Source: a virus. From it: DNA of 26,208 nt. The DNA lies in IMG/VR virus record IMGVR_UViG_3300050821_009899, positions 1-26,208 of that record; one strand, given 5' to 3'. Positions 337-25,783 of the stretch are shown here, piece after piece; positions within the stretch are counted from its first letter, which is position 1, and every line of letters begins with the position of its first letter. Made by a program: the position numbers and the translations under genes. The notes below the pieces were generated by a model. It saw nothing but the letters and a program-made list of their open reading frames with translations. It was not told the DNA's origin and did not search any database.

Positions 337-524
337 GGACCCGGCCCCTGATTCGGTCGGAGTCCTATGAATCATGCCCGCTTCAGCAGAGGAATCCCAA
401 AAATCTCATCCGTCGCAAATTCGTCCGCACGGCCTAGGGATGCTTACCCGGGCAATCCCCAAAATCGAGGTGCTGGCTTTGGGTGGCTATGCGCACGTGA
501 TGCACTCGGCTTTCAGCCTGCGGG

Positions 525-3069: not shown

Positions 3070-3105
3070 GGTGAATCGTTCCTGCTAGGGCCGGAATGAC
3101 TCACC
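3070..3105 (-). terminator. Stem-loop over the stop codon of the giant fibre gene
   Basis: The arms 3070-3082 and 3093-3105 pair over 13 positions with one G-U wobble and one A-C mismatch around a 10-base loop. The stem includes the TGA stop at 3101-3103. No U-run follows in the minus direction, so it is not a textbook intrinsic terminator. It may instead protect the mRNA 3' end or reduce read-through into the ExbB-like gene. Confidence 0.4.
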
Positions 3106-11007: not shown

Positions 11008-11862
11008 CTACGCGGCGGAAGGATTCGCGAGAAGGATGGAAATCGATAACCTAACCTGGCCGCCAGTAAACGAACCGCCAGCCGCGGTGATGATGATCGT
11101 CGTGTTCGTGTAGAAGGCTGTCGGACCGATCAGGCCGAAATTTGATGACCCGGCCGGGACCGAGAGCAGCGAACCGAACTGCGAAAGGTTCCCAGATACT
11201 CCGATCTCATACGATGTGGCGCCAGTAATTGCCGTTAGGACACGAGCGCCGACCGCCAGGACGATGCAGTTTGCCGGGATCGGTACCGAAGCGTTCGTGG
11301 AAGCGCCCGAGAGGGGAACCGTCTGTTCGAGCACTTGCATCTGGATCGAGGCGCCATGCGCCGCCGCGGCCAGGTTGACCGTCGCCGGCATAAAACCCTG
11401 GCCGGTAATCGTCCACGCGCCGACGCCATTGCTCTCAATCTCGATATAGCCGTAAGCCTCGTTCACGACCGCCGAAATGGCGCCGTCGATATCATCAGTT
11501 CCGGCGGCGTTGACGGTGAGCGTCTTGGTGACCGAACAGGAGCCGCTTTCATCGATGATCAGAAGCTGTGTCCCGGTCGGATAGGCGCTAGCGGCCGGCA
11601 GCGTGATGACGCGCGCGGCCGTGAGCGCGGTGTAGGCGACCATGCGATCGGTAAATAAAGCCGTGTAGGCGACGTCAGAGACGGCCGTGCGCGTGTTGGT
11701 GATGACCTCGGCGAGTTTTGCATGCGGCGCGCCGCCGACCGTTACGCCATCGTTGAGGACGAGCCGATTGTTGGTCGTGTCGGCAACGACCTCCCCAGCC
11801 GCACCGGTGAAGCCGGCGACCTGGGATACAGTACCGCGACGAAGTTGAAGCTGCTCGCTCAA
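11008..11862 (-). CDS. Tail fibre protein with Mtd-type N-terminal domain
   Basis: The product has 284 residues from a TTG start at 11862, which overlaps the TGA of the tip gene (TTGA). The first 50 residues read LQLRRGTVSQVAGFTGAAGE then LVLNDGVTVGGAPHAKLAEV. This pattern is typical of the N-terminal attachment domain of major tropism determinant and related phage fibres. The middle contains ARVITLPAASAYPTGTQLLI, which recalls repeats in other fibre proteins. The C-terminal 120 residues are beta-rich (VPLSGASTNASVPIPANCIV, then AITGATSYEIGV) and probably form the receptor-facing part. The N-terminal domain presumably anchors the fibre to the baseplate built by the preceding tip protein. No C-type lectin variable region is visible, so a tropism-switching role is not supported. 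Confidence 0.75.
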   Translation of the reverse strand: MSEQLQLRRGTVSQVAGFTGAAGEVVADTTNNRLVLNDGVTVGGAPHAKLAEVITNTRTAVSDVAYTALFTDRMVAYTALTAARVITLPAASAYPTGTQLLIIDESGSCSVTKTLTVNAAGTDDIDGAISAVVNEAYGYIEIESNGVGAWTITGQGFMPATVNLAAAAHGASIQMQVLEQTVPLSGASTNASVPIPANCIVLAVGARVLTAITGATSYEIGVSGNLSQFGSLLSVPAGSSNFGLIGPTAFYTNTTIIITAAGGSFTGGQVRLSISILLANPSAA

Positions 11863-14465
11863 GGAACCGTCCCTAGATTGATGACGTCGATCAGGGCGTC
11901 ATTGGTGGAGCCAAAATCATCCGACACCGTCACAGCGCCAGTCGTTAGACCAAGATCGGTAGAGCCGATCAGCAGCTGTGCCGCGATCGGATGCGGGTTC
12001 AAAACGGCAACGGCGCCAAGATCGACGGTGTCGATAACCGAGGCTGTGACGAGCCCGAAATCGTCGGCCACAGTCGGCGCATCGTTCACCTGCCCCAAAT
12101 CAAGCGGAAAGCCCGCCTCGAGCTGCAGGGCGATCGGATGCGCCGGTGGCGTCGGTGGGGTATTCGGCGGCGACGAGACGACCACCGTCGAAGCGAATTG
12201 AGGCGTGAAGCTGTAGACCGCCACGGTCGACAGATCCTCGGCGCCACCGCCGAAGACGTTGAACGACTGGAATTTGAAATAGATCGTCTTGCCGATGAAA
12301 TTCGCCGGCACGTTATATTTGACGATCGCGCCGTCGATGCGAAAGAACTGCGCGCCGGAAGAATGGCTGGCACCGACCGAACCGCTCAGCGCGCGCGCCA
12401 GTCCGGTCAGATTGTAAGCCGGGGCGCTGCTGGTGAGCGTCGCTGCCTCGTAGGCGATCAGTTCGCTGTCGATCAGTGTCAGCGTCGCGCCGGCCTGCGC
12501 CGCCGCCTGACTGGTGCCAGTCAACGGGCTAGAGCCCTGCTCGCAACTCTCGGACAGGTTGACCGCAAGCGTATCGACCGAATCCCACCCGGCCGCGGCG
12601 GCCAGGCTCGCGGTCAGGAGCCCCTGGCGCATCGGCGCCGTGATGACCGCGATCTGAGAATAGGTGACGTTATCCGTCGAAATGTAGACGTTCGCGCCGC
12701 CCCATTGGTTGCCACCCCCGCCATTGATCCCCGACGCGCCGACCCATATCTGCGCGACGCCGCCCGTTCCGGACGGAGGCGGCTCGTAGATCAGCGGCGG
12801 GTTGATCGAAACGGCCGGGACACCCCAATTCGGCTGAAAGCCGCCCGCAGAAGCGTTCGGATTGAAGGCCGGGTTCGAGACGCCCGTCACCAACTCCTCG
12901 CATGTGCAGGACAGCAGGCCCTTGTCGTCCTCCTCGATCTCGATGATCCTAACCGGATAGTTCGACAGCCCCAGGTTCGCGTCCGTGATCGTGACGATGT
13001 CCATGGGATCGAGCAGGCAATATTCCCAGGACAGCTTGAACGTGAACTTGGTTCGGACATAGAGCGCGCGCTGCAAGATCGTCTGCGCGATCGCCGGCCC
13101 CATTACGAATTCGTCGCAGATCTCGTGAGCTTGAACGGTTGAGCCGACGCGTGGGCCGAAAATCTCGATCTGGCTTTGGTCGCGTGCCTCGACCGGAAGA
13201 GCGGAATATTGGTTCCCGCGTGACAAGACTTCGACGCGCTGGATCGTCGGCAACGAGAAGACGTCGACCCTTTCGACCTGGACCGGATCCTTGTTGCCCT
13301 TCTCGTCGACAAAGTCTGTGTCGCTCAGCGCGTATGCCGGGGTCAGATTTGGCGTGAAGTTGCCGGCAGAACCGGCAGTGTACGTGATGACGATCGGCTT
13401 CCCTTGATCCGCCTGCCCGAAGACGTAGGTGCCAGAAGGGAACATCCCGTATTGGCCCGCGACGGTGGGCTCCGCTGCCCCGATGAACGTGAGCGGGATG
13501 TTGACAAAGGCATAAACGACGCCGCCATCTGAAACGAACTGACTTGCAGGCGCGACCGTCACCAGCGCCGGGAGCGACCCGCCGGACGATACCGGAATCG
13601 GGACCGGGATCGATAATTCCGTGCTATAAGTCTGCACCTGTCCCGCGGAGATCGCCGTGTCCCCATAGGGGATGAATTTAAGCAGGCCGCCACTCCAAAC
13701 TGCGGCCGTCGAGAAGATCTGCAGCCACCGTGTCAGGATGCTTGATGCCTGTTCCTGGCTGACCAGAGCAGGCGAAAACGCATAGCCCATGGCGATGCAA
13801 TAGGCCTGAAAGGAATCCGGGTTCGTAAACAACGAGCCAGAATCGATCGACGCCGGATCGAAGCCGCAGCCATATTGCGCGTTGATCAAAAAATCCTGGA
13901 TGACCAGCGCCGGGTCGGCGTCGATGCCATTGACGCCGGTGCCGGCCAGAGGGCCATAGACCTCGACGTTATGATTGCCTATCGAGGCGCTGTCGCCGAG
14001 ATTGTATCCGCCGCCCCAGAGGTAGGCCGTGCCCTGATAAGCGAGGGCGTTGAAAGGGTAGGTTGCCGCGAGATACGGCCAGACCTCTTGCGGTGTCGAT
14101 CCTGGAAACGATCCGAGCCCCAACTCGAGCTGGACATAGACCCCGAGGTCTTTCCAGATGAACCCGATCCCGGTCCCGATCTCGCCTTTTGGTGTTAGCG
14201 GCCCTTCGCAGAGCGCCATGATCAAATCAGCGGTGTAGGTGTAATCGGCCCCGGCCGCGCTGGCACCGCCGAAGAGACCCCCTTTGCCGCCGATCCCCTT
14301 GCCGTTACCGCCCGGGACCGCCTTGAAATTTGCATACCAGATCAGGTTCGGCGCGATCTTGTTCTGACCCCATACGATCGGGATTGGCAGCGTCGAAGTC
14401 GACGTCTGGACCTGGAGCGCGGTGTAATCTGGTTTGGCGTTGTCGCTGCGGCGGAGGAAGGCCAT
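11859..14465 (-). CDS. Tail tip / baseplate hub protein, GTA gp15 C-terminal-like (phage-tail_3)
   Basis: The product has 868 residues. The N-terminus (YTALQVQTSTSTLPIPIVWG, then GADYTYTADLIMALCEGP) is typical of host-specificity tip proteins related to lambda gpJ and the C-terminal part of GTA gp15. Residues about 380-560 contain the conserved hub region, with VERVDVFSLPTIQRVEVLSR and FKLSWEYCLLDPMDIVTITD. Residues about 303-364 carry an inserted beta module also found in the tail tube and connector. Residues about 575-740 look fibronectin-like. The last 93 residues are two copies of a 44-49 residue repeat. Unlike GTA gp15, it has no TIM barrel, which sits in another gene here. It lies after the NlpC peptidase, as in GTAs, and its stop overlaps the fibre start. 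Confidence 0.88.
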   Translation of the reverse strand: MAFLRRSDNAKPDYTALQVQTSTSTLPIPIVWGQNKIAPNLIWYANFKAVPGGNGKGIGGKGGLFGGASAAGADYTYTADLIMALCEGPLTPKGEIGTGIGFIWKDLGVYVQLELGLGSFPGSTPQEVWPYLAATYPFNALAYQGTAYLWGGGYNLGDSASIGNHNVEVYGPLAGTGVNGIDADPALVIQDFLINAQYGCGFDPASIDSGSLFTNPDSFQAYCIAMGYAFSPALVSQEQASSILTRWLQIFSTAAVWSGGLLKFIPYGDTAISAGQVQTYSTELSIPVPIPVSSGGSLPALVTVAPASQFVSDGGVVYAFVNIPLTFIGAAEPTVAGQYGMFPSGTYVFGQADQGKPIVITYTAGSAGNFTPNLTPAYALSDTDFVDEKGNKDPVQVERVDVFSLPTIQRVEVLSRGNQYSALPVEARDQSQIEIFGPRVGSTVQAHEICDEFVMGPAIAQTILQRALYVRTKFTFKLSWEYCLLDPMDIVTITDANLGLSNYPVRIIEIEEDDKGLLSCTCEELVTGVSNPAFNPNASAGGFQPNWGVPAVSINPPLIYEPPPSGTGGVAQIWVGASGINGGGGNQWGGANVYISTDNVTYSQIAVITAPMRQGLLTASLAAAAGWDSVDTLAVNLSESCEQGSSPLTGTSQAAAQAGATLTLIDSELIAYEAATLTSSAPAYNLTGLARALSGSVGASHSSGAQFFRIDGAIVKYNVPANFIGKTIYFKFQSFNVFGGGAEDLSTVAVYSFTPQFASTVVVSSPPNTPPTPPAHPIALQLEAGFPLDLGQVNDAPTVADDFGLVTASVIDTVDLGAVAVLNPHPIAAQLLIGSTDLGLTTGAVTVSDDFGSTNDALIDVINLGTVP
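11862..12140 (-). repeat. Tandem duplication at the C-terminus of the tip protein
   Basis: Two adjacent units of 49 and 44 residues share the order HPIA-QL, then DLG, V-DDFG, then IDV/TV-LG-V. The first begins HPIALQLEAGFPLDLGQ and the second HPIAAQLLIGSTDLGL. The copies are clearly diverged. They may form repeated beta-blades where the fibre docks. Confidence 0.65.
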
Positions 14466-14581
14466 TACTTGCGCGCCGCGCCTTTCGTCTTCCTGGTCAG
14501 CTTTGGAGCCTTGGCCAGGAAGAGCGTCCGCGCCTCTCCGCGATCTTTGTCTGGTTTTCTCGACGAGTCAGCATTCCTCAC
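14465..14581 (-). CDS. Possible small basic peptide (38 residues)
   Basis: A GTG-started frame lies between the NlpC peptidase and tip genes. It starts inside the peptidase gene's last codons and ends TAATG, sharing bases with the tip start. The product would be VRNADSSRKPDKDRGEARTL followed by a lysine-rich end (APKLTRKTKGAARK). The coupled stop/start overlap and the filling of an otherwise empty 102-base gap favour a real gene. The weak ribosome site, the GTG start and the short length argue against it. No family is recognised. Its role may be only to carry ribosomes to the tip start. Confidence 0.35.
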   Translation of the reverse strand: MRNADSSRKPDKDRGEARTLFLAKAPKLTRKTKGAARK

Positions 14582-15032
14582 CCCAAATACTGGCGAACTT
14601 TGCCGTCTTCATGCGCGCCGAGAGCTCGGCGTTGTTCTGGATAATGTCCTCGACCACGCGTTTGGCCAGGGCGAAGGCGTGGATGATCGCAAGCGGAGCA
14701 ACGCGCGATACAATCCCGGCATGAGCGAAACAGCGGCCCATGCGAAAAACAACAATATCGCCCTCCAGTGGCGTCCGTACCTCGCGCGAGCGCGACAGTA
14801 GGAAGCCGAGATAGCGCTCTTCGTCACGATGCAGGAACCAGTCTTTGGTGTAGGGGCGAGGATCGAATTTCTCGACGACGCCGAGATCGCAATAGACGCG
14901 GACCAGAAGCATGGCGCAGTCGACGCCGTGACCCTTGACGTCGGCCGCATGGTGGTACGGTGTCTGGAGCCATGTGCGCGCCTCAGCGACCACCGCCGCG
15001 CGCTGCGCCCCCTCTCTCGATGGCCGCATCAA
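14568..15032 (-). CDS. NlpC/P60-family tail peptidase (GTA gp14-like)
   Basis: The product has 154 residues, the usual length for this tail-associated family. The papain-like NlpC/P60 core is visible. The catalytic cysteine is Cys39 in GVDCAMLLVRVY, the histidine is His104 in FAHAGIV, and His118 (IIHAF) is a candidate third residue. WLQTPYHHAA before the cysteine is the family's usual lead-in. In GTAs and related phages this enzyme sits at the tail tip and cuts peptidoglycan so that DNA can pass into the periplasm. The start ATG at 15032 overlaps the stop of the DUF6197-like gene (ATGA). It sits just before the tip gene, as in GTA clusters. It should not be taken for the phage endolysin. Confidence 0.9.
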   Translation of the reverse strand: MMRPSREGAQRAAVVAEARTWLQTPYHHAADVKGHGVDCAMLLVRVYCDLGVVEKFDPRPYTKDWFLHRDEERYLGFLLSRSREVRTPLEGDIVVFRMGRCFAHAGIVSRVAPLAIIHAFALAKRVVEDIIQNNAELSARMKTAKFASIWGEEC

Positions 15033-15343
15033 GCCGGCATCCCCGAAGCAATTTCGATCGCCTTGAGAATTGCGTCGCGAACCTTATCGCGAGTGGTAAG
15101 CTTGGAGTCGTTCCAGGCTTCGATGCTCCTCCATCCAATCACTTGACGAAGAAGTTCAGCCGCCGGCGAGCAAAGCCCTCCGGCAACGATCTGTATCGCA
15201 TAGCCGACGCAGACGCCGCCGAAGGCGTTCCTCGCCGTTATTTGACACCAGCCATGCTCTTCGAGATAGGCGAGCGTTCTGCGCAAACCCGCGGCGGTTT
15301 CATTCCCAACGACAATCAGGTCGGACGGAAAGACGTGCTTCAT
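15029..15343 (-). CDS. DUF6197-like small protein
   Basis: The frame is open to 15460, but the upstream part overlaps the preceding gene and reads as basic shadow. I chose ATG at 15343, eight bases after that gene's stop, giving 104 residues starting MKHVFPSDL. The core EEHGWCQITARNAFGGVCVG followed by YAIQI, with paired cysteines and a GWC motif, resembles DUF6197 proteins found in phages of several bacterial groups. Their function is not known. The end overlaps the NlpC start by ATGA, so the two are translationally coupled. This gene is extra compared with the standard GTA order, where the DUF2163 and NlpC genes are adjacent. The family assignment is made from memory and is tentative, while the gene itself is well supported. 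Confidence 0.7.
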   Translation of the reverse strand: MKHVFPSDLIVVGNETAAGLRRTLAYLEEHGWCQITARNAFGGVCVGYAIQIVAGGLCSPAAELLRQVIGWRSIEAWNDSKLTTRDKVRDAILKAIEIASGMPA

Positions 15344-15350
15344 CGCGCCC

Positions 15351-16235
15351 TCAAAAGGCCAGTTGCGGCGGCGGGACGTAGGGGAAGGCGCGGAAATTCG
15401 GAAGATTGTTGAACTTGGCCACGCAGGTCGATTGCGTGTGATCGCAACCGAACGCGACATTGAAGGCGTCGCCGGTGGCCGGCGCGAATGGCAGCGGGTA
15501 CATCAGATTGTAGCCGATCGGCACCTGGGCGCCGTTCAAGATGACGGACTTGATCGTCACTCGGACATTGGAATTGGCGCCCGAAGTGAAGACGAGAGAT
15601 CCCTGCGCGTCACCCTTGCGCGCGCTCGAGAACATGATCGTGCCGGAGTTCGACCCGGCCTCGCAGTTCCCGTCCAGCGAGAACGTCCCGCGGACGATGC
15701 CGCAGCCGGCGTCATAGAGGACGTGGAGACAGGTCGGCGAGAACAGGTTCCTCGGCATGTCGTAATCGAGGATCACGAGATCCGACGCGACCGTCAGAGT
15801 AGCCTGAGTTCGACCAACGTTATCGACAGTAGAGATCCGTCCCTGGAATAGCCGAACACCCCCAACGACAGCGCCACCCGGAGCAGTGAGAAAGACGCGG
15901 TCTCGGTAAACCGGTGCTCCATCGAACGCCCCATCTCGAAGAGCGATAAGGAAAGGCGCGCCGTTGATGAGGTCTGTCGGTCGGGCGGCGATGGTGATCT
16001 GCTGTTTATCGACTTCAAGGCCCACTGATCCCTTGTATTTGAGACCGGAAACGAGCGGGCCTTCGGCATTGAAGGTGAAGCCGTTGAAAACGACGTCGTA
16101 GTCGACGCTCGTCCATGTGTAGACCGTGCCCGTGGTGGTGATGAAGGTGAAGCACTCGGCGAACGCGATTGGCGCGTCGGGTGCGGCGCGGGCGGCGTTG
16201 ATGAGGTTGATGGCCGCGGCAGAGGTCTGTTTCAT
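15351..16235 (-). CDS. DUF2163/BR0599 baseplate hub protein (GTA gp13-like)
   Basis: The product has 294 residues, the usual length of the family. The N-terminal half has the DUF2163 pattern (AFAECFTFITTTGTVYTWTS, then SGLKYKGSVGLEVDKQ). The C-terminal 85 residues carry the BR0599-type ending, with FGCDHTQSTCVAKFNNLPNF then RAFPYVPPP, in which GCD, TC-AKF-N and NFRAFP are the conserved points. Cysteines in YDAGCGIV and GNCEAGS are also typical; in GTA gp13 such cysteines bind an iron-sulfur cluster, and the same may hold here. The protein is part of the tail hub between the distal tail protein and the tip. Its ATG overlaps the stop of the 29-residue membrane peptide. Confidence 0.88.
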   Translation of the reverse strand: MKQTSAAAINLINAARAAPDAPIAFAECFTFITTTGTVYTWTSVDYDVVFNGFTFNAEGPLVSGLKYKGSVGLEVDKQQITIAARPTDLINGAPFLIALRDGAFDGAPVYRDRVFLTAPGGAVVGGVRLFQGRISTVDNVGRTQATLTVASDLVILDYDMPRNLFSPTCLHVLYDAGCGIVRGTFSLDGNCEAGSNSGTIMFSSARKGDAQGSLVFTSGANSNVRVTIKSVILNGAQVPIGYNLMYPLPFAPATGDAFNVAFGCDHTQSTCVAKFNNLPNFRAFPYVPPPQLAF

Positions 16236-16321
16236 GACCAGAAAAATTTCCAGAGGCCGGCCATAAGCAAATAGATCGCAGCGCCTCCGGCCAGAAAATA
16301 AAGGGTGTCGGCAGTAATCAT
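16232..16321 (-). CDS. 29-residue single-helix membrane peptide
   Basis: A complete short gene starts at ATG 16321 with GAGGAAGG seven bases upstream. It ends in TGA, which overlaps the next gene's start (ATGA). The peptide starts MITADTLYFLAGGAAIYLLM and ends AGLWKFFWS. It is a single hydrophobic helix with an aromatic, basic C-terminus, so it should sit in the inner membrane. The strong ribosome site and exact stop/start coupling make chance unlikely. No family is recognised. It lies inside the tail-tip genes, where no membrane protein is expected; possible roles include superinfection exclusion, a small holin-like helper or membrane guidance for hub assembly. Confidence 0.6.
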   Translation of the reverse strand: MITADTLYFLAGGAAIYLLMAGLWKFFWS

Positions 16322-16537
16322 CAGAGCGCCTTCCTCAAGCCACGTCGCCTATCGAGCGCTGTCGAGCTTGGAGATCTCTTCCCGCAGGGGACAGCAAGTC
16401 TTATCGTTTATGGGTCTAGCTCGTTTCGCGTGCGCGTGGCGGGGGAGATTATCGGAGCGCCGGTCCAGCAAACTTCTCCGCTGGCTGCGGATCGAGTTAA
16501 GGTGCGTGGGCAAGCACCCACGGGCTGAGGTAGAGTT
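16322..16537 (-). other. Gap in the tail-tip operon with unresolved short frames
   Basis: This 216-base gap is unusual in an operon where most genes overlap. A minus-strand frame is open to TAG at about 16346 and reads THLNSIRSQRRSLLDRRSDN, ending LREEISKLDSAR just before the next ribosome site. It has only TTG-type starts, one with GGAG close upstream. On the plus strand an open frame reads SLIVYGSSSFRVRVAGEIIG and ends APTG, but has no start codon. A perfect 6-bp stem (16505-16510 with 16517-16522, loop of six) lies just after the DUF2460 stop. I cannot decide between a small protein gene and a structured leader. Confidence 0.3.
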
Positions 16538-17155
16538 TCACGACGTCCGCACCGATTTGAATTTGATACTGTCGACCTGCCACAGGTTCGACATGAATTC
16601 CTCGAAATCCTGGTCGTCGGAATCGAAGCGGCACTCGAAGGCGTACGTAAAGGTAGCGGCAACCGAGACGCCGGGGCCGGGCGCGGTCGCAAACACAAGC
16701 GAGTTAGGGGCCGATAACGACCAGCCGGACGGCTGATTGATATTGTTCAAAAAAACGTTCGCGATGCTCGTCACCCAGCCAACTGGCTCAAGGAACGCGC
16801 CCATAAAGCGGCAGAACGTGAAGGTGGTAGTCACCCCATCGCCAGTGGCCAAGCGCACGTTCGTCGCCGTGCTGTCAGTCGGATCGTTGTAGAGGAAGGT
16901 CCCGAATTGCCCTTGCATCTGTAGGAAGAAACCCATGAGCGCCTGCAGGGAATTGGCGCCGGCTCCGGGATACGAAGTTGGCGATGATGACAGGGCGTCG
17001 AAGGTCAGCTCGAATTGCCAGATGGGGTTCTGATAGAGAGGGTCGCGAACCTCTCGGCCAGAGACATGAGTCGCGACCAATGTCGAAAACACTGGCCTTT
17101 TGTGCACGCTCCAGCCAAGGCCGGCCAGCGTCGGGAACGAGGGCGGTGTGGTCAT
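16538..17155 (-). CDS. DUF2460 distal tail protein, second copy (GTA gp12-like)
   Basis: The product has 205 residues, the usual size for the DUF2460 (TIGR02217-like) family that forms the distal tail ring in GTAs. The N-terminal pattern is LAGLGWSVHKRPVFSTLVAT then HVSGREVRDPLYQNPIWQFE. The middle contains LATGDGVTTTFTF and the end CRFDSDDQDFEEFMSNLW. All have equivalents in the domain at the end of the preceding gene (WSVHIKPQFKTEIGQHVSGR, GVGDGSQTVFPLV, DFEEFMTMLWALRTV). The two are therefore paralogues from tandem duplication. The start ATG at 17155 follows the shifted-frame stop of the upstream gene by one base. This copy is intact and is the likely functional distal tail protein, while the fused copy may form a second ring or cap. 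Confidence 0.88.
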   Translation of the reverse strand: MTTPPSFPTLAGLGWSVHKRPVFSTLVATHVSGREVRDPLYQNPIWQFELTFDALSSSPTSYPGAGANSLQALMGFFLQMQGQFGTFLYNDPTDSTATNVRLATGDGVTTTFTFCRFMGAFLEPVGWVTSIANVFLNNINQPSGWSLSAPNSLVFATAPGPGVSVAATFTYAFECRFDSDDQDFEEFMSNLWQVDSIKFKSVRTS

Positions 17156-17156
17156 A

Positions 17157-19668
17157 TCACGGTCGGACCGTCACCAGCCGAACCGTTCGGAGCGCCCAGA
17201 GCATCGTCATGAACTCCTCGAAGTCCTGCACATTTTCGGCGAAGCGGCAAAGCCAGAGAATGCTGAAGTCGGCTGTGATGGCGGCGCCCGCGAGCGGCGC
17301 CGAGGTGAATGTGATCGCCGGCAGATATCCACTCGAAACGGACCAACCGCTGGGCTGTGCGACACCGTCTAGGTAAACTGCGGCAACGCCGGATGTCCCG
17401 TAGACGGGGCCAATGTAGGAACCGATCGAGCCCACCAACGGGAAAACCGTCTGCGAGCCATCGCCCACTCCTATCGCTTGGCGCGACTGCCGATAGACCG
17501 GGTGGCTCGACCCAGAACGGCGCGGCCTCGCCACTTGCCTGTTCGAAGAACCCGGCAATTGCCTGCAATTCGAGATGCGCGGCGTCTGCACGCAATAGGT
17601 CATAGGTAAGATCGATGTCGAAATAGGGGTGCGCGAACCGCTGGGTCCGCGTTTCCCGTCCGCTCACATGCTGACCGATTTCGGTTTTGAATTGCGGCTT
17701 GATGTGGACAGACCAGGCAAGAGCGGGTCCGAGTGCGAGCGTAGCGAATTCTGGAGGGGTCGGGGGTAGGCTTGGCGAAGGCGGTGGCAGGACGGCGCGG
17801 GTCGTTCCGATCCAAAGCCCCTGCGGCCAGTTTCCAGCGTCGCCCCAGGCGCTATTTAGGATCGGGAATGTCGGGAATGGCCGCGCATCCGTATTCCAGA
17901 CGCAGCAGAAATTCCAGTTAAGCATCGGCAGTCCGCCGACGCTTTCATTGTTCCCGTCGACATTCCAGTATTCGTAGACCGCCTGAAGCGCTAGAGCCTG
18001 AATGGTGTCGTCACGCCGCGGGAGATACCCGAGCTCGTTGGCGGGATCCCAGATCGACCAGTAGGCCGTGAAGCTCTCTGTCGATTTTGGGTCAAAGAAG
18101 ACGTTCGGTTGGTTCGTCGACTTGTCGCACGCAGCGAATCCGTATTCCAGCGTAATGACCGACTTGGCGTTCGGATCCCATTCGGTTTTCGGCCCGTGCG
18201 GAGCGAAACCTTGGCCGTCGCCGTTGTCGTAAACGGCTTGGTGGTTGTTATTCCACCACCACCGCAATTGCTTATTGGCCAGGATTTCCTGATTCGGAAA
18301 ATATGGATTGCGCGCCTGTCCTAGACGATCGCCTTCTGGCAACGAGACTTGTAGGTCTGTACCCACCGGGTCGAGGCCGCGGCCGAGATTATTGCTATCG
18401 TTGTAGAACCAATCAAAATACTGTCCGCCCTCAATGTTGCTCTTGAGATATGGTGTTGAGTAGATCGTGGGCGGCCCGCTCAAACCCGAGCCGCTCAGTT
18501 GTGTAGGTCCAGGCGGCCAGGACCCACTGAACTGTGGCTCATTCCAGTTCGCCGCGTCCAAACCGCCGGAGCCCGTCGCCCAGTCCGTCAGTGGCATGTA
18601 GTTGTCAAAGCTGACGAAATCGATGTTCGGATTGGCCCACAGTTGATCGAGATGCGGCCACTGACCGTCTGCCCCTGCGTGCTGCCATCCCATCCAGCTC
18701 GACCAGTCGGCCGAATACGTGATGAGGTTTTCAAGACTTGACAGGTTTTTGGTGAGACCTGCGCTATCGAACGTGGACCGGACGTCATTGGCGAGGGCGT
18801 TCAACTGGGCGACCATTGGATAGTCCCAGATCGCGTTGCCCGAACCGTCGACGGCCCCCGGTTTCGTCCAGGTCGGACCGCGCAGGATCTCGAGGCCGCG
18901 AAGCTCCGAACCAATCACGAACAGGCCCACTCCACCCGCCACTACGCAGAGGTTCGCATAGTGCAGAATCATGCGACGGAACGTCCAATCGAACGGTCCT
19001 GCTGCGCCGGCGTAAGCGACGGTCAGATTGATCGAATCCCGAACGAAATCGCCGACCCCCGCGCTGCCCATGAAGGACGCCACATCATTCGTCGCAGTCT
19101 GCATTAGATCGCCGGGCGAGGTGATGCGGCCGCGCCAGGGGAATCCGGCGCTCGTCCCAAGCAGGAACGGATAGAAGACGACGTTGAATCCGCGACTTTT
19201 GAGATCGCGGATGCAGCGCACGACGCTTGGATCGCTCGGTGTGCCGCCATACACGAAACTGGTTGAGCCGGGCAGCGCGGGAAGCGGGATGAGGCCCGGA
19301 TAGTCCTGCTCCGTTAGGCTTGACACGTTCCAGTTGACGGGCGTGAAGGTCGACCCGTTCCATTGCTCGAACTCGCCGAGAATGAAGTTGGTCGACGGAT
19401 AGATGTTGCAGCTCGACGCGTCCTCCGAGTTGAAGAACCACGCGATGACCAAGCTGACCGTCGTGCATTCAGGATGTTGAGCCTGATATTGCGTAATCGC
19501 GTTCGTATAGTCGGTCGGCGCGCCGGGCGAACTGCTGAAGAAATTCAGGATGGTCGCGTTGTTAAGTCCGCTCGATCCGCGCTGAAACCCGACCGCCGAG
19601 ATCGTGTCGTAGGCGAACTCGCCAGTCGACGGCAGGAGATGGACGCCGGTGACGGTTGGGAAAGTCAT
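17157..19668 (-). CDS. GTA TIM-barrel domain fused to DUF2460, with a frameshift in the DUF2460 part
   Basis: Residues 1 to about 640 match the TIM-barrel-like domain normally found at the N-terminus of GTA gp15. Key stretches are YGGTPSDPSVVRCIRDLKSR, FNVVFYPFLLG then PWRGRIT, LFVIGSELRGLE near residue 254, and IDFVSFDNYMPLTDW near 355. These glycosidase-like barrels are thought to act on surface glycans. A proline-rich linker leads to a DUF2460 domain from about 645 (LAWSVHIKPQFKTEIGQHVS). Near 17496-17506, at CCACCCGGTC, the unshifted frame (stop at 17152) loses all similarity. The +1 frame continues the domain with VYRQSRQAIGVGDGSQTVFP, ending LVTVRP at 17157. The join gives 836 residues. 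The shift may be a mutation, a sequence error or programmed. The start overlaps the tape measure stop (ATGA). Confidence 0.82.
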
Positions 19669-20984
19669 CCGCGTCCGTTGAGCCGTTTGAGTCCGAGCGC
19701 CGCGCCGTGCCGCACGGCCTGGTCGAGCGCCTTAGCCACGCCGGGACCATTAGAGCGCATCCATGACGCCACGGACGCCCCGTCTATTGCGTTGACATGG
19801 AAATGGGTCGTGGGATGGATGGCGACACTGCCGCCGGCCGCGCCACCACTGTTTGGAGCGTTCGTCAGCATGTCGCGTAGCGCGCCAGCCGGCCCAGCGG
19901 GCATAATGAGCTCGTTCTGGTGAATCAGCGCAAGTTGATCTCTTGGCACCTGCCACATGCCGATATCCGCGGATGCAACAGCGCCAGCCATTCCCGCGAC
20001 CGTTGCCTGCGCCGCTGTGGCGGGACCGATGGCGAGGGGTCCCATGAGCGGCGCCAGAAATCCGAAGACGCCGGCAAAGGTCTCTGCGGCGGACGAGAGG
20101 ATCGATTGGACCATCGCCGCGCCCTGTGCGCCCAATGAAGCCGCGGCTCCGCCCTGTTCGGCCCCCGTGCGTGCGGCGACGCCCGCCGTGGTCGCGGCCG
20201 TCTTCATCGACTCCGCCAAGGCGTAGCGTGCGACGCTCGTTTCGCACCATTCGATGAATTTGATCAGCAAGTCCTGAAGCGCGTTCTTAAACGCCGTATG
20301 CCAGGTCGTCGTCCCGGTCAGCAGTCCGCGCAATTGGGAATTGACCGCTTGCGCGATCGAATTGCCGAATGCCTGATAGTCGCGCTCTTGGTCTTGAAGG
20401 GCCGACCGGGTCAACGCAGCCATCTGATCATCGCGGCGGCGTGTCGCTTCGATGATCATGTCGTCAACACGCTGTTTTGCAGCGAGCGATTGCTGGCCGA
20501 GAGCATCTTGCCGTTGTAGCGCGGCGAGCTCGGCAGCGTATTCTGCGTCCAGGGCTTGCTGCGAAAGGGAGAGCTTTTGCTGCTGCGTGATTTCGTAGAA
20601 GCGAGCCTCTTCGGAATAGAGAGCAAGCTTCTGTTTCGTTGCGTCGGCGACGATCCTTAATTCTTCACTGGTGGCGAGTTGGGCTGCCCTTGCCGCATCG
20701 GCGTAGGACGCCTCGTCGCCTTCGCGCAACGCTGCTGCAGCGCGAGCGCTATCAGCGGCGAACGACTGCTGAAGTGCTTGGGTCGCGGAGAGCGCGTCGC
20801 GATAGGGAGTCAGACGATCGGCGCTGAAAGCCTGGGACGTAGCGGTCCCGAACGAGACGAGTTGGCGGTTCATTTCGCCGAACGGCGCCGCAAAGGTCTG
20901 CAAGGCATCCTTTGCCTCGCTGACCTGAGAGACAAAATCGTTAGTCGAAGCGCTGAAGCTGACGGAGACGTTTGCGTCGGCCAT
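19665..20984 (-). CDS. Tail tape measure protein (short, 439 residues)
   Basis: The product starts MADANVSVSFSAS after AAGGAT at a good distance. Residues about 60-215 are almost wholly helical and charged, with coiled-coil character (LSQQALDAEYAAELAALQRQ, RVDDMIIEATRRRDDQMAAL). Residues about 280-345 are alanine- and glycine-rich and hydrophobic, as in the membrane-inserting part of tape measure proteins. The C-terminus contains VPRDQLALIHQNELIMPAGP, a variant of the P-L-x-x-GE-V/I-P motif common there. It lies directly after the G-T chaperone region and before the distal tail genes, as expected. At about 1.5 angstroms per residue it would set a tail near 65 nm; that figure is a rule-of-thumb inference. 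It overlaps the next gene by ATGA. Confidence 0.85.
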   Translation of the reverse strand: MADANVSVSFSASTNDFVSQVSEAKDALQTFAAPFGEMNRQLVSFGTATSQAFSADRLTPYRDALSATQALQQSFAADSARAAAALREGDEASYADAARAAQLATSEELRIVADATKQKLALYSEEARFYEITQQQKLSLSQQALDAEYAAELAALQRQDALGQQSLAAKQRVDDMIIEATRRRDDQMAALTRSALQDQERDYQAFGNSIAQAVNSQLRGLLTGTTTWHTAFKNALQDLLIKFIEWCETSVARYALAESMKTAATTAGVAARTGAEQGGAAASLGAQGAAMVQSILSSAAETFAGVFGFLAPLMGPLAIGPATAAQATVAGMAGAVASADIGMWQVPRDQLALIHQNELIMPAGPAGALRDMLTNAPNSGGAAGGSVAIHPTTHFHVNAIDGASVASWMRSNGPGVAKALDQAVRHGAALGLKRLNGRG

Positions 20985-21011
20985 GGCTGATCCTTGACCT
21001 TACTGGGGATG

Positions 21012-21631
21012 TCAAAGCGCGCCATTTGGAAAGGCCGCCTTCAGTTCCACAATCGTTGGCTGGCGCGCCGGCGCGATCTCGTCTGGCTCACGATACTTGA
21101 GCGCGGCGGCCACGAGCCAGTGAACGGGCGGGTTACGGCGCCACTCCGCTCGCAGTGCGAGAAACCGCGGCATCGTCAATTGGTCGAGCGCTTCATCCCA
21201 GCGCCAGCCGGTATTGGAGACGACCTGAGCGATCAGGGCGTCGAAATCGACTTTCCCACGTTTTGCGACGCCCCCGGCGTCGCATCCGCAGGCAAGCCTG
21301 GATCCTCAATCTTGCCTGGACGAAGGCCAGCCGCTCTAGCCACCGAGGGAAAGGCCTGAATCAGTTCGCCGACCGAGAACGCGAGGTCGAGAAAGTTTGC
21401 GAAGGAAAGCTCGGGCTCGACGAAAGAGACCGCTCGCCAAGTCGCCTCGGCGAGGCGATCGAGCTGGGCCTCGTTGAGGCGCGCAACGGATTCGGCTGAC
21501 ATCACGGCGCCGCCGGCTGAGAGATAGACGTCGAACAACGCTGGTTGGATAACCTTGACCGCGCGGAACGGAAGATGCGGGACCGACCAGGTCTTTCCCC
21601 CAAGCGATATGGTGAAGGGCTCCTCACTCAC
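21012..21631 (-). CDS. G-T tail assembly chaperone made by -1 frameshift
   Basis: Translation that slips back one base at 21257-21251 leaves the G frame and continues as VDFDALIAQVVSNTGWRWDE and onward to TGA at 21012-21014. This gives 206 residues, and 620 bases plus the re-read base divide exactly by three. The extension contains DQLTMPRFLALRAEWRRNPP then VHWLVAAALKY. The pattern of W-W-E-----T--RF-AL---W---PP-H---A is typical of the second half of chaperones in Alphaproteobacteria phages. This half has no good start codon of its own, supporting expression only by frameshift. In lambda the G-T form recruits tail tube subunits to the tape measure, and the same is inferred here. Confidence 0.8.
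21233..21631 (-). CDS. Tail assembly chaperone G
   Basis: The unshifted product has 132 residues from GTG at 21631, which overlaps the tail tube stop (GTGA). The frame is open further upstream to 21754, but that part lies inside the tube gene and reads as basic shadow. The sequence begins SEEPFTISLGGKTWSVPHLP, then LNEAQLDRLAEATWRAVSFV, and ends NVGKSISTP after the slip site. The location between tail tube and tape measure is where lambda-like phages encode gpG. It is expected to coat the tape measure protein during tail assembly together with a small share of the G-T form and to be absent from mature particles. Confidence 0.8.
   Translation of the reverse strand: MSEEPFTISLGGKTWSVPHLPFRAVKVIQPALFDVYLSAGGAVMSAESVARLNEAQLDRLAEATWRAVSFVEPELSFANFLDLAFSVGELIQAFPSVARAAGLRPGKIEDPGLPADATPGASQNVGKSISTP
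21251..21257 (-). promoter_or_regulatory. Ribosomal -1 slippery heptamer GGGAAAG
   Basis: In the G frame the site reads G GGA AAG, the X XXY YYZ form, and it is identical to the slippery heptamer of lambda gene G-T. It lies 15 bases before the G stop codon at 21233-21235, so slipping ribosomes avoid that stop. After slipping the frame reads GGG AAA GTC and stays open for about 80 codons. Confidence 0.85.
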
Positions 21632-22380
21632 GCCGCGTCTCCGAAGTTGAAGGTCATGACCTGACCGGCGGCGTTGGCGAACGCCTGGAACTCGAAGTCC
21701 GGCTTGGAGAAGTCCTCGATACTGGTGTCGAATGAGAATTTGCTGGCGACGCACTGGTTGAGCGTCACCGAGAACTGCGCGTTCGTCGTCGGGTCGGTCG
21801 CGAATAGCACCGCCGAGAAAGTCGACGTCGGTCCGACCAGCGGATTGCCGATCACCAGGTTCTGAGTTGTCGTAGCCGTTTGTGTGTAGGTGTAGGAGAT
21901 TAGGACGCCGGCGCCCTGATCTCCCGAGAAGAAGGTGTAGACGCCGGTCGAGGCGTTGAATGTGTACTGTCCCGTCGCCGTCACCGTCGCGACGTTAAGC
22001 AGTGGGAGGCCGTTGGCCGCGTAAGTAACGCCCTGGTCAGCCACGAAGTGCGTCGAGTTGGTGACGGTGATCGTGTCGGGGGCCGACGAGGGGACGCTAT
22101 GCACCTCAGCAAACTGAGATATGGTCGAGCCGGGAGTGGGCGTCTGATTGTAGAACAGGCGACCGAGGGCTTGCCCGCTGAAGCGCGCCAAGGACGCCTT
22201 GCACGTGACCTTGCGGGTGCCGGATCCGACGGCGACCGGGAACGCAAATTGGCCGTACAGTTCCTTGACGCTGACGGACGTGTCGACGCTGACCTTCTGG
22301 ACCAGTCCAAAGTTGATCGGGGTCGGATTGGGGACGTTCAATTGCGTGCCGATCAGCACACCCGAGCCGAATACGAACAT
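21628..22380 (-). CDS. Major tail tube protein with inserted beta module
   Basis: The product has 250 residues from ATG at 22380 with GGAG nine bases upstream. The N-terminal half has the tube-protein pattern, with TPINFGLVQKVSVDTSVSVK then ELYGQFAFPVAVGSGTRKVT. Its end (FSFDTSIEDFSKPDFEFQAF then NAAGQVMTFNFGD) matches the usual closing strands. Residues about 100-168 are an inserted module (FVADQGVTYAANGLPLLNVA, GQYTF, GVYTFFSGDQGAGVLISYTY) that also appears in the connector and tip proteins. Inserted Ig-like domains often decorate tubes and bind glycans. It precedes the chaperone gene with a GTGA overlap. A GC hairpin lies in its leader. Confidence 0.82.
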   Translation of the reverse strand: MFVFGSGVLIGTQLNVPNPTPINFGLVQKVSVDTSVSVKELYGQFAFPVAVGSGTRKVTCKASLARFSGQALGRLFYNQTPTPGSTISQFAEVHSVPSSAPDTITVTNSTHFVADQGVTYAANGLPLLNVATVTATGQYTFNASTGVYTFFSGDQGAGVLISYTYTQTATTTQNLVIGNPLVGPTSTFSAVLFATDPTTNAQFSVTLNQCVASKFSFDTSIEDFSKPDFEFQAFANAAGQVMTFNFGDAA

Positions 22381-22416
22381 GAGGGTGAACTCCGTTATGG
22401 GGTCGGTATGAGAGTC

Positions 22417-22445
22417 GCGCCGCTGCTGTCAGGGAGACGCGGCGC
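22417..22445 (-). promoter_or_regulatory. GC stem-loop in the leader of the tail tube gene
   Basis: Seven bases GCGCCGC (22417-22423) pair perfectly with GCGGCGC (22439-22445) across a 15-base loop. It lies in the 105-base gap between the DUF3168 and tube genes, the largest gap in the neck-to-tape-measure run. No U-run follows, so mRNA processing or 5'-end protection of the highly needed tube message fits better than termination. Confidence 0.35.
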
Positions 22446-22485
22446 ATTTCCGAGAAGGTTCAGCGGAGCGAGGGACGGAGCGTCT

Positions 22486-22920
22486 TCACGGCCCAATCAG
22501 CCGGACTGCGACCACCGCGAGCCCATCGCCGTCGAGGTCGCCTGTGTCTCGCACCGGCACGCCCGTAATCTTGCAGTCATACACGGCGCCGCCGAGGGTT
22601 TGGCGGCCGAGGCCGATGTTGGAGTCCGCAGGCGCGAGAGCCGCGTCGATCGCGTCGAGAGCGTTGTTGATCGCGATCGCGCCCGGCGTCGTCGGGTCAC
22701 GCGCGTCGAAATAGAGGAAGAGCTTGGCTTCAAGCGTTCGCTTCGCCGTCGTGGGTGACGCCCATTGATAAGTTTCCGGGCCTGATTCGAGCTGGAAGAA
22801 CGCCGGCCGCAGCGCCGCTGGAACTTCGCTCCACAGCTTCATCCTCCGCGACGCGAGTCCCCACGGATAAGCAGAGGACACGGCGGCGAACAGTGCGGAG
22901 AAGGCCGCTTCGCGGGTCAT
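22486..22920 (-). CDS. DUF3168 tail terminator / neck protein
   Basis: The product has 144 residues. An ATG exists at 22932, but I prefer the one at 22920 because it forms an ATGA overlap with the gp10-like stop and has GGGAG six bases upstream. The sequence begins MTREAAFSALFAAVSSAYPW, has VPAALRPAFFQLESGPETYQ then LEAKLFLYFDARDPTTPGA, and ends CKITGVPVRDTGDLDGDGLA. This order is typical of DUF3168 proteins, which cap the top of the tail tube and join it to the head (GTA gp8-like position). Length and position agree with this. Confidence 0.82.
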   Translation of the reverse strand: MTREAAFSALFAAVSSAYPWGLASRRMKLWSEVPAALRPAFFQLESGPETYQWASPTTAKRTLEAKLFLYFDARDPTTPGAIAINNALDAIDAALAPADSNIGLGRQTLGGAVYDCKITGVPVRDTGDLDGDGLAVVAVRLIGP

Positions 22921-23405
22921 GCGCTCTCCCATGCATCGGCCGCGCAGTCGGCGAGCGCCGCGAGGATTTCGTCTTTCATGTCCTCAAGCGACGAGCGCAA
23001 ATAAGATCGCTCCGGGATCACCGAACCAGGATGCTCCACCTTGTGCGCAAAATGCTGAGCGCCGCCGACGATAAAAGCGAGCACGTTGCCCTTAACTGGC
23101 AGGATCTCGTGCGCGCTCGTCTTGCCGCCGTACTCCTGAATCGCCGCATATTTCACGTCGCCTTCGGAGCCGACCGAAGCAAGAACACCGTCCGCGTCGG
23201 CAGTTACGCTGGCCGCGATCGAGTCACGGAGCGCGCCGGAGCTTGTCTTCAACACTGCGCCGGAAAGCTTGTTGTCTTTGACCAGCTCGGCGAGCGCCGC
23301 GGCGAGTTCGGTCGCCTTCGCGCTAAGCGCAGCTTGCAATGCGGCTGGATAGGCGTCGAGTTGCGCCCTTGTTTCCTCAAGACCCCGGACCTCGAGCGCG
23401 GACAT
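22917..23405 (-). CDS. HK97 gp10-like head-tail joining protein
   Basis: The product has 162 residues starting MSALEVRGLEETRAQLDAYP. The family hallmarks are present: a helical N-terminal half, then VKYAAIQEYGG, then VIPERSYLRSSLEDMKDEI. The YA-I-E-GG and PERS-LR motifs are diagnostic of the HK97 gp10 family, which forms part of the neck between connector and tail terminator. The ATG at 23405 shares a base with the connector stop (TGATG), and the stop overlaps the DUF3168 start. Nothing is missing from the family pattern. Confidence 0.87.
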   Translation of the reverse strand: MSALEVRGLEETRAQLDAYPAALQAALSAKATELAAALAELVKDNKLSGAVLKTSSGALRDSIAASVTADADGVLASVGSEGDVKYAAIQEYGGKTSAHEILPVKGNVLAFIVGGAQHFAHKVEHPGSVIPERSYLRSSLEDMKDEILAALADCAADAWESA

Positions 23406-24226
23406 CAGAGGATGACCCGCTTATAGGGTTGCAGCATCGCTTGGATCGGCGCCGACATTGCGCTCGTGTCGTAAGCGATTGTTTCCTGACCGCCTATCGA
23501 CTTCGATTTGAGCCCGATGCGCTCGGCCGCGCGAAAACGCTCAGCCGCCAATTCAAGGGCTGCCTGCGCGATATCCTGCGGCACATAGCCATAAGAGATG
23601 AAAACCGATTGTCCGGCGTCGGCCGCAGAGAACGAGTAGATGCCGGCGCTGACCGAATATTGGCCAGCGCCAGGCAAGGCTGAAACCGCCGTCAGCGACG
23701 CGCCGGTCGCAGTATAAGTCGCGCCAAGATCCGATCCCCAGGGTCCATAAGGCGAAAACGCGGAGAACTGGAGGGGAGCGCCGGCGGGAACGGCTTGCGC
23801 CTCGTTTTGAACCGCGTATCCAGCGCTGTAGGATACGACGAGACTTTGCCGTCCCGCCCGGTAGTGATGGCCGAATAGATCAAGCGCCTGCGGCCGCCCC
23901 GGTGGAGCGCCATCGTCCGGCTGAAGGACATAGCCGAATGACGCCTCCGGATCGGCGTTCTCGTCCGGCGGTACACTGATTCCGCGCCATGTCACCGAGG
24001 TAACCTGCAGCACTGGCCATTGCCTCAGGGTTACGCGACTGGTCTCGAGATCAATCGTCTCAGCGTAGGAGAACGGCAGGAGGCTGGGGCGGCTCAGCCA
24101 CGCGTAGATCGAGCGGCTCGCCGCCGTGATGAGCGCATTGAGCGTCCCATCGTTCGGGCCGGGCGCGGAGGGCAATCCGAGCCAGGCCTTCAAGGCCGCG
24201 AGATTGGTCAGATCGAAGGGCGACAT
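23405..24226 (-). CDS. Head-tail connector (gp6-like) with inserted beta module
   Basis: The frame extends to a TTG at 24250, but ATG at 24226 starts a more typical MSPFDLTNLAALKAWLGLPS, giving 273 residues. The N-terminal helical part continues with LITAASRSIYAWLSRPSLLP and RVTLRQWPVLQVTSVTWRGI, typical of gp6-like connectors that sit under the portal. The C-terminal helix QDIAQAALELAAERFRAAER is the usual last family helix. Between them, at about residues 142-214, is the beta module (GQYSVSAGIYSFSAADAGQS, VFISYGYVP) seen also in tail tube and tip. The insertion makes the protein longer than the roughly 180-200 residues usual for such connectors. Confidence 0.82.
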   Translation of the reverse strand: MSPFDLTNLAALKAWLGLPSAPGPNDGTLNALITAASRSIYAWLSRPSLLPFSYAETIDLETSRVTLRQWPVLQVTSVTWRGISVPPDENADPEASFGYVLQPDDGAPPGRPQALDLFGHHYRAGRQSLVVSYSAGYAVQNEAQAVPAGAPLQFSAFSPYGPWGSDLGATYTATGASLTAVSALPGAGQYSVSAGIYSFSAADAGQSVFISYGYVPQDIAQAALELAAERFRAAERIGLKSKSIGGQETIAYDTSAMSAPIQAMLQPYKRVIL

Positions 24227-24258
24227 GCAACGCTCGCAATGACGGGCCAAAGTCGAAA

Positions 24259-24310: not shown

Positions 24311-25783
24311 TCAGCCGTTGCCGATGTTGGTGAGGATGCCGATGCCGAATGAGGCGTATATGGCCAACACCTCTTCAGTGTAGACGCCGAACTCGCGGCG
24401 ACGGGTGCGGACTGGCCAATCGACGCGATAATAGTCGCGACGCGTCAGGACCTCCGCGACATTGGGTGTCTCGTTCGATTGATACCACGCCGGCAGTCGC
24501 TCGCAGTAGGCCAGGATGGTCCCGGGCGGCAGATCCGGATGAACCGGCATCGGGATCTCTGTGCCAGTGAACGGATTATAGTACCAGCGTACGACGCCGG
24601 AGGCCGTGAACTCATAGGGCGCTGACTGAGAGGCGTCGACATTGTAGCGAACGAGCGGGCCGGACGCGTTCGTCAGGCACTTCGACGTGATGTTTTTCTG
24701 CTCCTGCGCGTTGACATAGATCACCGTCGGCGACAGCCGATAGTTGTTCCACATCTGCAGCAGCATATTGTCGATCTCGGCAATCGAGCCTCGGCCCGAC
24801 GGTGTAAGGAACGTGCCTGTGCCTGCCGGACCCGACGCCAGCCACTGGACGAACGAGGCTGTTGCGGGGTTGAAGCCGTCCGTCAGCAATCCGTCGAACG
24901 CCAGCCCCGGATTGCGAGAATTGTCAGCGGTGATGACGGTCGCCGCCTGCTGGCCTGAAACGAGCGGCGCGCTAAAGGCGGCGCTGTTGATCGTGGTGAT
25001 CGCCTGCAGCGTCTCCGAGCCAGCGGCCCCAACATACCACGCATAAGCGACAGCGCCGATGATGATCGGAGCGGTTGCAAGCAGCGTCTGTCCGAACGTC
25101 ACTGCTTGTGTGACGTTGGGGCTGCGCATCGAGGAGCCGCCGTTCAGCGTATAGGTGTTGCCGTCGTTACCGGTGATGGTCTTGGTTGCCGCGACTCCGC
25201 CGGCGAGGCTTGAGTTGCGATAGCCCTCGAATGCCAGACCGACGACGATCACCGAATAGGTCGCCGCTGGAAGGGTCGCGCCGGTGCCCGAGGCCGTCAA
25301 AGCCGGAGCGCTGGCCGCGCCGAGCGCAAGCGACGTGTTGCCGCCGAGGAGCGCAGTCTCCTCCTTGCGCATCGTCTTCTGAAGGATGCGCAGGGTGGCA
25401 GTGGCGTTGATGTCTTCGAAGCCCTGAGCGGCAGCTTCCGCTTCGAAGGTCACCGTATCTTCCTCGCCGAGCGTGACGTAGGGGAGCGTGACCGAAACTG
25501 CCGAATAAGACATGCTTGCAGTACGTTGGCCTTCCGGCACCCAGCCCATCGCGTCAAAGCCTGAACCGGTCGTGCCAAAGATCGAGCGCCAGTGAGCCGC
25601 GTCGCCTGGATTCAGCCGTGCGACGCGGGGAATTGAATTTCTCAATGGAGTGATCGTCGGGTACAGGTTCTTCGCCGGCGCCTGCAGGTCGTATGCGGTC
25701 AGGCCGGTCGAGATCGTAACGTTCTTGGCGAGCGAGTCTTTCATCAAACCCAACGTTTCCTGGGTCGTCAGCGCAATGTTCAT
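24311..25783 (-). CDS. Major capsid protein (HK97 fold) with a large inserted domain
   Basis: The product has 490 residues from ATG at 25783, preceded by AAGGAA. Capsid-type features are visible: YPTITPLRNSIPRVARLNPG near residue 41, VTLPYVTLGEEDTVTFEAEA near 98, and TLRILQKTMRKEETALLGGN near 130. Later come SIAEIDNMLLQMWNNYRLSP and VIYVNAQEQKNIT. The RILQ-T-R-EE-ALLGGN region is typical of long-helix spine elements in HK97-fold proteins. Residues about 160-285 look like an added beta domain, with LPAATYSVIVVGLAFEGYRN then GSETLQAITTINSAAFSAP resembling a fibronectin-like surface domain. No prohead protease site can be assigned by eye. A GC hairpin follows the stop. Confidence 0.85.
   Translation of the reverse strand: MNIALTTQETLGLMKDSLAKNVTISTGLTAYDLQAPAKNLYPTITPLRNSIPRVARLNPGDAAHWRSIFGTTGSGFDAMGWVPEGQRTASMSYSAVSVTLPYVTLGEEDTVTFEAEAAAQGFEDINATATLRILQKTMRKEETALLGGNTSLALGAASAPALTASGTGATLPAATYSVIVVGLAFEGYRNSSLAGGVAATKTITGNDGNTYTLNGGSSMRSPNVTQAVTFGQTLLATAPIIIGAVAYAWYVGAAGSETLQAITTINSAAFSAPLVSGQQAATVITADNSRNPGLAFDGLLTDGFNPATASFVQWLASGPAGTGTFLTPSGRGSIAEIDNMLLQMWNNYRLSPTVIYVNAQEQKNITSKCLTNASGPLVRYNVDASQSAPYEFTASGVVRWYYNPFTGTEIPMPVHPDLPPGTILAYCERLPAWYQSNETPNVAEVLTRRDYYRVDWPVRTRRREFGVYTEEVLAIYASFGIGILTNIGNG

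Follow-up and report, generated by a model that had tools for sequence, protein, structure and literature searches.

Why should three proteins of one virion that are otherwise unrelated share a segment of sequence? The question is raised by a 26,208-nucleotide stretch of soil bacteriophage DNA (IMG/VR virus record IMGVR_UViG_3300050821_009899, positions 1 to 26,208; hereafter the window). A first-pass annotation of the window noted a segment of 60–70 residues with a D-G--Y pattern in the head–tail connector, the tail tube and the tip protein. It proposed that the segment is a beta module inserted into unrelated proteins, that it has spread within this genome, and that it could confer a common surface property such as glycan binding or stability; profile search, structure prediction and comparison of homologues with and without the segment were named as checks. 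Here, we find that the three proteins each carry one homologous folded insert. We favor, with moderate confidence, the reading that this module serves as an external brace, a promiscuous domain that is related to the known phage immunoglobulin-like (Ig-like) decoration domains and has no name of its own.

Three copies of one module

The connector is encoded at 23405–24250 on the minus strand (281 residues as listed; the ATG of MSPFDLTN at 24224–24226 is the likelier start). It matches PHROG 442 (head–tail adaptor, E 2.6e-22) and, below the family cut-off, Pfam Phage_connect_1 (PF05135, E 0.0013). Its AlphaFold2 (AF2) model aligns with HK97 gp6 (3jvo; Z 10.2, 95 of 97 residues) and with the neck proteins of DT57C, T5 and the gene transfer agent (GTA) (Z 11–13). 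The adaptor family match and the helical gp6 core place it among the gp6-like head–tail connectors. The first module copy (23585–23815, minus strand) is flanked by the final strand (..LVVSYSAGY) of the connector's own beta domain and by a helix that begins VPQDIAQAALE.

The tail tube (major tail) protein (21628–22380, minus strand, 250 residues) is a full-length member of PHROG 8234 (E 2e-47, residues 15–245 of 250), and the module corresponds to about positions 100–177 of that profile. The second copy (21883–22122, minus strand) follows a helix formed by model residues 68–75. The third copy is in the tip, a J-like baseplate hub of the Phage-tail_3 type (11859–14465, minus strand, 868 residues), which matches PF13550 (E 3e-31) and PHROG 1101 (tail protein, E 5.2e-80). 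Here, an insert of about 90 residues (13371–13640, minus strand), of which 13374–13574 is the conserved module, is located between ..FIPYGDTAISAG and NFTPNLTPAY...

All three segments are thus present on the minus strand where they were first placed. The D-G--Y pattern is complete in the connector (23591–23731) and the tube (21892–22038), and is matched in the tip (13380–13529) with a longer second spacer. Relative to the starts first given, the module begins 4 residues earlier in the connector, 13 residues earlier in the tube and as many as 27 residues earlier in the tip. Outside the module, no similarity is detected among connector, tube and tip, in agreement with their assignment to a gp6-like connector, a tail-tube fold and a Phage-tail_3 hub, respectively.

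A MAFFT alignment of the three segments has 14 invariant columns, with 32–34% identity to the connector copy. To compare the copies by profile search, each profile was built from copies of one carrier protein only and scored on the others, with 17,596 reversed open reading frames (ORFs) as decoys. The tube-only profile scores the connector of the window at 65.0 bits and the tip at 37.0 bits; the connector-only profile scores the tube at 56.2 bits and the tip at 32.3 bits; and the tip-only profile scores the tube at 54.8 bits and the connector at 42.2 bits. The best reversed ORF reaches 9.5 bits. Chance likeness is excluded, because the copies of each protein recognize those of the others far above the reversed ORFs. 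In addition, PHROG 8234, a whole-tube family that was built independently, matches connector residues 150–223 (E 1.7e-10) and tip residues 255–363 (E 1.2e-4), over the module stretch only; neither protein is a member of the family. HHalign aligns the connector module with the tube module over 73 columns (99.8% probability, E 7e-29). The alignment takes in an N-terminal E...VP motif outside the pattern first quoted; therefore, the segment is one homologous beta module, as proposed, with a length of about 75–80 residues instead of 60–70. The window contains exactly three copies; a fourth was sought by profile scoring, with the fiber, capsid and DUF2460 proteins included, and none rises above noise.

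Predicted fold and insertion sites

AF2 predicts one six-strand domain in both connector and tube. The mean pLDDT is 85.7 for the connector (59 sequences) and 87.8 for the tube (70 sequences), and is about 95 over the module in each. As judged from DSSP order, the two domains share a long, a short and a long strand, a 17-residue loop, two short strands, a three-residue helical turn and a final long strand. The strands span residues 145–152, 160–162, 170–178, 196–200, 203–206 and 214–221 in the connector, and 84–94, 102–104, 111–119, 137–141, 146–149 and 157–166 in the tube.

In the tube model, the module (84–166) is positioned between the helix (68–75) and the next core strand (186–194) of the tail-tube fold; this placement concerns the tube copy only. 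The whole tube model matches 8xkn (Z 15.5, 225 residues), JBD30 (8rk3_f, Z 13.9) and YSD1 (6xgr, Z 12.9), as well as the chi tube, and the 130-residue minimal tube of R4C aligns with it over 126 residues only. The connector copy weakly resembles P1 baseplate, type VI secretion system (T6SS) and other injection-system proteins (6n38_I, 9ay5_0, 9gtp_1G; Z about 6), matches that are middling and indicate no function. A Pfam-A search with seven module copies at E up to 5 returns no match, Big_1, Big_2, I-set and fn3 included. A PDB sequence search with the connector returns weak neck-protein matches, and a BFVD search with the connector returns mainly gp6-type proteins, with no clear match to both beta domains.

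In strand order, the connector's own beta domain (model residues 58–142; window 23821–24076) equals the module, and it aligns with domains of T4 gp6, the phi812 baseplate and CBA120 TSP4 (Z about 7–8.6). We considered whether the module is a duplicate of this domain and rejected it: the strand order is similar, but HHalign gives 0.8% probability. The same pair shows how the likeness among the three module copies could in principle reflect a common fold or beta-rich composition rather than descent, since small beta-sandwiches are common in tail proteins and these two domains agree in strand order yet share no sequence similarity. The mutual recognition of the profiles far above decoys, together with the HHalign match through the E...VP motif, makes such convergence hardly credible for the module copies.

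Relatives that lack the module show where it entered. In 17 connectors, the chain runs directly from ..VTVSYTAGY to ..PPEIEQA. Five phage homologs of the tip have a clean gap of about 90 residues. Among tips from homologous loci (cited by L number), L169 carries the module at a first site (site A), and its sister clade L052–L070 has the empty site ..IPYGDTAVTGNG-VTFNPNVTPIY..; the tips of L053 and L140 likewise show a clean gap at the module when set against L169, which is nested among module-free tips in the tree. The module is a genuine insert in connector and tip, as the first-pass annotation had it, because relatives have an empty site. Across 80 prophage-type genome loci, it is found in 80 of 80 tubes, 29 of 64 connectors and 7 of 44 tips, and is thus optional in connector and tip and entrenched in the tube. 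In the tube, the module is an insert only relative to the structurally known minimal tubes and is constitutive among sequence relatives.

Three candidates for empty sites were set aside. Two viral contigs (L018 and L035) with apparently module-free tubes are frame-broken fragments. A nearly identical empty tip site in L099 is excluded, since a contig-level deletion joins a chaperone-region gene to the tip. The fused gene (L099 3038–5317) runs from the tail chaperone region straight into the tip at NLTPVY; the tail genes that would lie in between have apparently been lost by internal deletion.

Distribution and history of the module

The module family occurs in at least six kinds of virion protein: tube, connector, DUF2460 protein, DUF2163 hub, tip and a GDSL-like protein. 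A scan of 172 sequences (the window and the loci) yields about 290 copies, and 80 further genome loci add 116 module-bearing ORFs; some loci overlap, and the copy counts are not independent. Tandem pairs are found in connectors L089–L091. Tips have a second site nearer the N terminus, often with two copies (L064–L076). In two of these tips (L064 8750–12481, residues about 180–285; L068 9134–13705, residues about 205–310), the module itself holds another nested segment, about 90 residues long and unrelated to it. Its pattern, ..FTVTSC..GG.TVY.GTF.GG....G....I.GF...NN.TF.C.ASTAT..T..NP.GVAET.., resembles another mobile beta module.

The DUF2460 proteins of Brevundimonas phages Polewnik and Strzyga carry the module, and their counterpart in the window (distal tail type, 16538–17155, minus strand) is module-free. 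Likewise, the DUF2163-type hub of the window (Gp84_N and BR0599 domains; 15351–16235, minus strand) is module-free, and its counterparts in L163 and in L166 and L167 carry the module at two different points. In a Rhodoblastus prophage and its relative, a GDSL-like tail protein of 914 residues contains the module at 50 bits; the GDSL label is weak (Pfam E 0.0043). Twenty bacterial genomes give 39 module hits, and those that were placed, which is not every hit, are in prophage tail loci. As a constitutive part of the tube, the module is found throughout a large set of phages and prophages that belong chiefly to Alphaproteobacteria.

Module copies cluster by the protein that carries them. The nearest neighbor belongs to the same protein class for 104 of 104 tube copies, 78 of 78 connector copies and 36 of 41 tip copies. 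Identities within a genome equal those between genomes, both for connector–tube pairs (0.49 versus 0.48) and for tip–tube pairs (0.38 versus 0.38). Recent copying within this genome is therefore not supported, and the spread first proposed is no recent event here. The insertions are old and mostly inherited with the carrier protein. Over evolution, the module has been mobile, as its six kinds of carrier attest. The trees call for two to three gain or loss changes in the connector and for seven changes among no module, site A and site B in the tip, counts that are rough, as the trees were made quickly and have some long branches.

Several neighbors deserve mention. Upstream of the intact DUF2460 gene, the ORF for the GTA TIM-barrel protein (17152–19668, with 17157–17603, minus strand) enters the first 74 positions of a DUF2460 domain and then loses frame; the remainder lies in the neighboring frame. 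The break may reflect decay, frameshifting or an error in sequencing. Following the tip gene, an ORF (11008–11862, minus strand) starts with an Mtd_N domain (major tropism determinant N-terminal, PF18454, E 4.4e-10) and on that basis may encode a receptor-binding protein. In a putative major capsid protein (24311–25783, minus strand; PHROG 13692, E 8.5e-105), residues about 150–290 form a beta-rich Gly/Ala/Thr stretch with the look of a decoration domain that was inserted separately and is unrelated to the module. A 2235-residue fiber-like protein (3101–9808, minus strand) has repeated Gly/Ser/Thr beta motifs (FTVSG/TYTVN) and no Pfam match. At the left end, a transposase-like fragment (1–375, minus strand; ..SSAHLIQMFDSTIVRAHVSAAGAKGGK) suggests an insertion sequence or a prophage edge.

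A possible brace, and comparison with known systems

What might the module do? In the AF2 models, its first and last strands are long edge elements, and such a domain could be set into a surface loop of the carrier protein with the carrier's fold undisturbed. Constitutive in the tube, it has entered, or been exchanged among, other tail-axis proteins at several points and, after each insertion, was passed on with the protein that received it. Facing outward from proteins that form rings, it would touch and brace adjacent subunits. The model for this contact is domain 2 of the YSD1 tube, which wraps the neighboring subunit like a latch, buries 950 Å2 per subunit and locks the ring (PMC7385642). 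A stability role, one of the two surface properties first suggested, is plausible on this analogy.

The conservation of the module is consistent with such a position. When close relatives are compared, conservation is lower in the module than elsewhere in the carrier (0.73 versus 0.82 in the connector, 0.68 versus 0.82 in the tube and 0.66 versus 0.74 in the tip), as would be expected if the module is an exposed addition; the gap vanishes when the relatives are more distant. The positions conserved in all carriers are turn glycines, one aspartate and an alternating hydrophobic or aromatic core (D.GV.Y...G..L..V....G.Y....G.Y.F...D.G..V.I.Y), and no polar or aromatic surface patch common to the tube, connector and tip copies is evident among them. 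Variability around a conserved core is better explained by an exposed structural addition than by a ligand site that all copies share.

These data bear on the other suggested property, glycan binding, for which we find no support. The module could still aid adsorption as a weak glycan- or surface-binding domain present in many copies along the tail: Ig-like tail domains have been proposed as host-surface binders (PMC9022992; PMC7385642 for YSD1 domain 3), and the faster divergence of the module among close relatives would agree. We regard this as quite unlikely, given that the conserved positions describe a folding pattern without a common surface patch, the connector copies sit at the neck, remote from the cell, and the module matches no carbohydrate-binding family in Pfam.

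Alternatively, the module may be functionally neutral, a tolerated insert spread by recombination that is harmless and has become structurally entrenched in the tube. Its patchy presence in connector and tip (29 of 64 and 7 of 44), its several gains and losses and its faster evolution than that of its carriers all point that way. The module is, however, in frame in all 80 sampled tubes and across large clades of module-bearing connectors, which implies purifying selection, and tandem copies are kept. Neutrality is therefore unlikely.

Several points weigh against the brace itself. PDB sequence searches with the tube and module alignments return no relevant match, YSD1 and JBD30 included, and because no sequence link to YSD1, JBD30 or other solved structures is found, it is only by fold and position that the latch role is transferred to the module. 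The connector, hub and tip rings differ in symmetry, and the same contact may be absent there. A very ancient common origin of the module and the connector's own beta domain may also exist. Finally, one search pattern in the survey of tube relatives came from the module, and for that reason tubes without it may be under-sampled. On balance, we still place an external brace first. A bolder version, in which the neck, tube and tip copies touch each other or one partner as a common girdle and the tube is a reservoir that re-seeds other tail proteins, is very unlikely.

With these assignments, PHROG 8234, to which the tube belongs over nearly its whole length and which has no function label, gains the label tail tube, and extra stretches in connectors, tips, DUF2460 and DUF2163 proteins become an insert with boundaries. 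As a case that can be counted, the family shows one type of domain that has entered at least six kinds of virion protein and whose empty sites are still to be seen. The long-open role of Ig-like decorations in siphophage tails becomes testable with connectors and tips that occur naturally as pairs, one member with the module and one without.

Domain 2 of the YSD1 and chi tubes (PDB 6xgr; PMC7385642) occupies the same place in the tail-tube fold as the tube copy. Its authors saw a weak structural likeness to phage and T6SS baseplate proteins, and the connector copy shows the same. Domain 2 has no detectable sequence relation to the module and was described as distinctive of chi-like tubes, whereas the module is also found in connector, DUF2460, hub, tip and GDSL-like proteins. 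The JBD30 major tail protein (8rk3; PMC11445458) has an Ig-like decoration domain (residues 88–175) after a helix (77–83); here and in tubes 8xkn and 8ygm, as in the tube of the window, the insertion follows a peripheral helix, and the whole tubes match at Z 13.9–15.5. No sequence similarity of the JBD30 domain to the module was found, and the passages of that paper that were consulted make no mention of the domain in other virion proteins.

Promiscuity in phage structural proteins is known for Ig-like domains of the Big_1, Big_2, I-set and FN3 types (PMC9022992, which cites Fraser et al. 2006); as with the module, a single type of domain is displayed on virions by several structural proteins that are otherwise unrelated. 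These are recognized families, and in tail tubes they are mostly added at the C terminus. The module, in contrast, belongs to no Pfam family and is inserted within its carriers, and a single virion can have it in as many as three different proteins. A survey of phage domain mosaicism (Nat Commun 2023, PMC10684548) likewise reports fragments shared by unrelated phage proteins, mostly ancient; it stresses receptor-binding proteins, endolysins and replication proteins, and the terms 'tail tube' and 'connector' are not in its main text. A literature search confined largely to openly accessible papers found no earlier description of a domain shared by connector and tube. Domain promiscuity and mosaicism are thus already known; this family stands apart in that it is inserted internally, reaches the head–tail connector and is present in three proteins of one virion.

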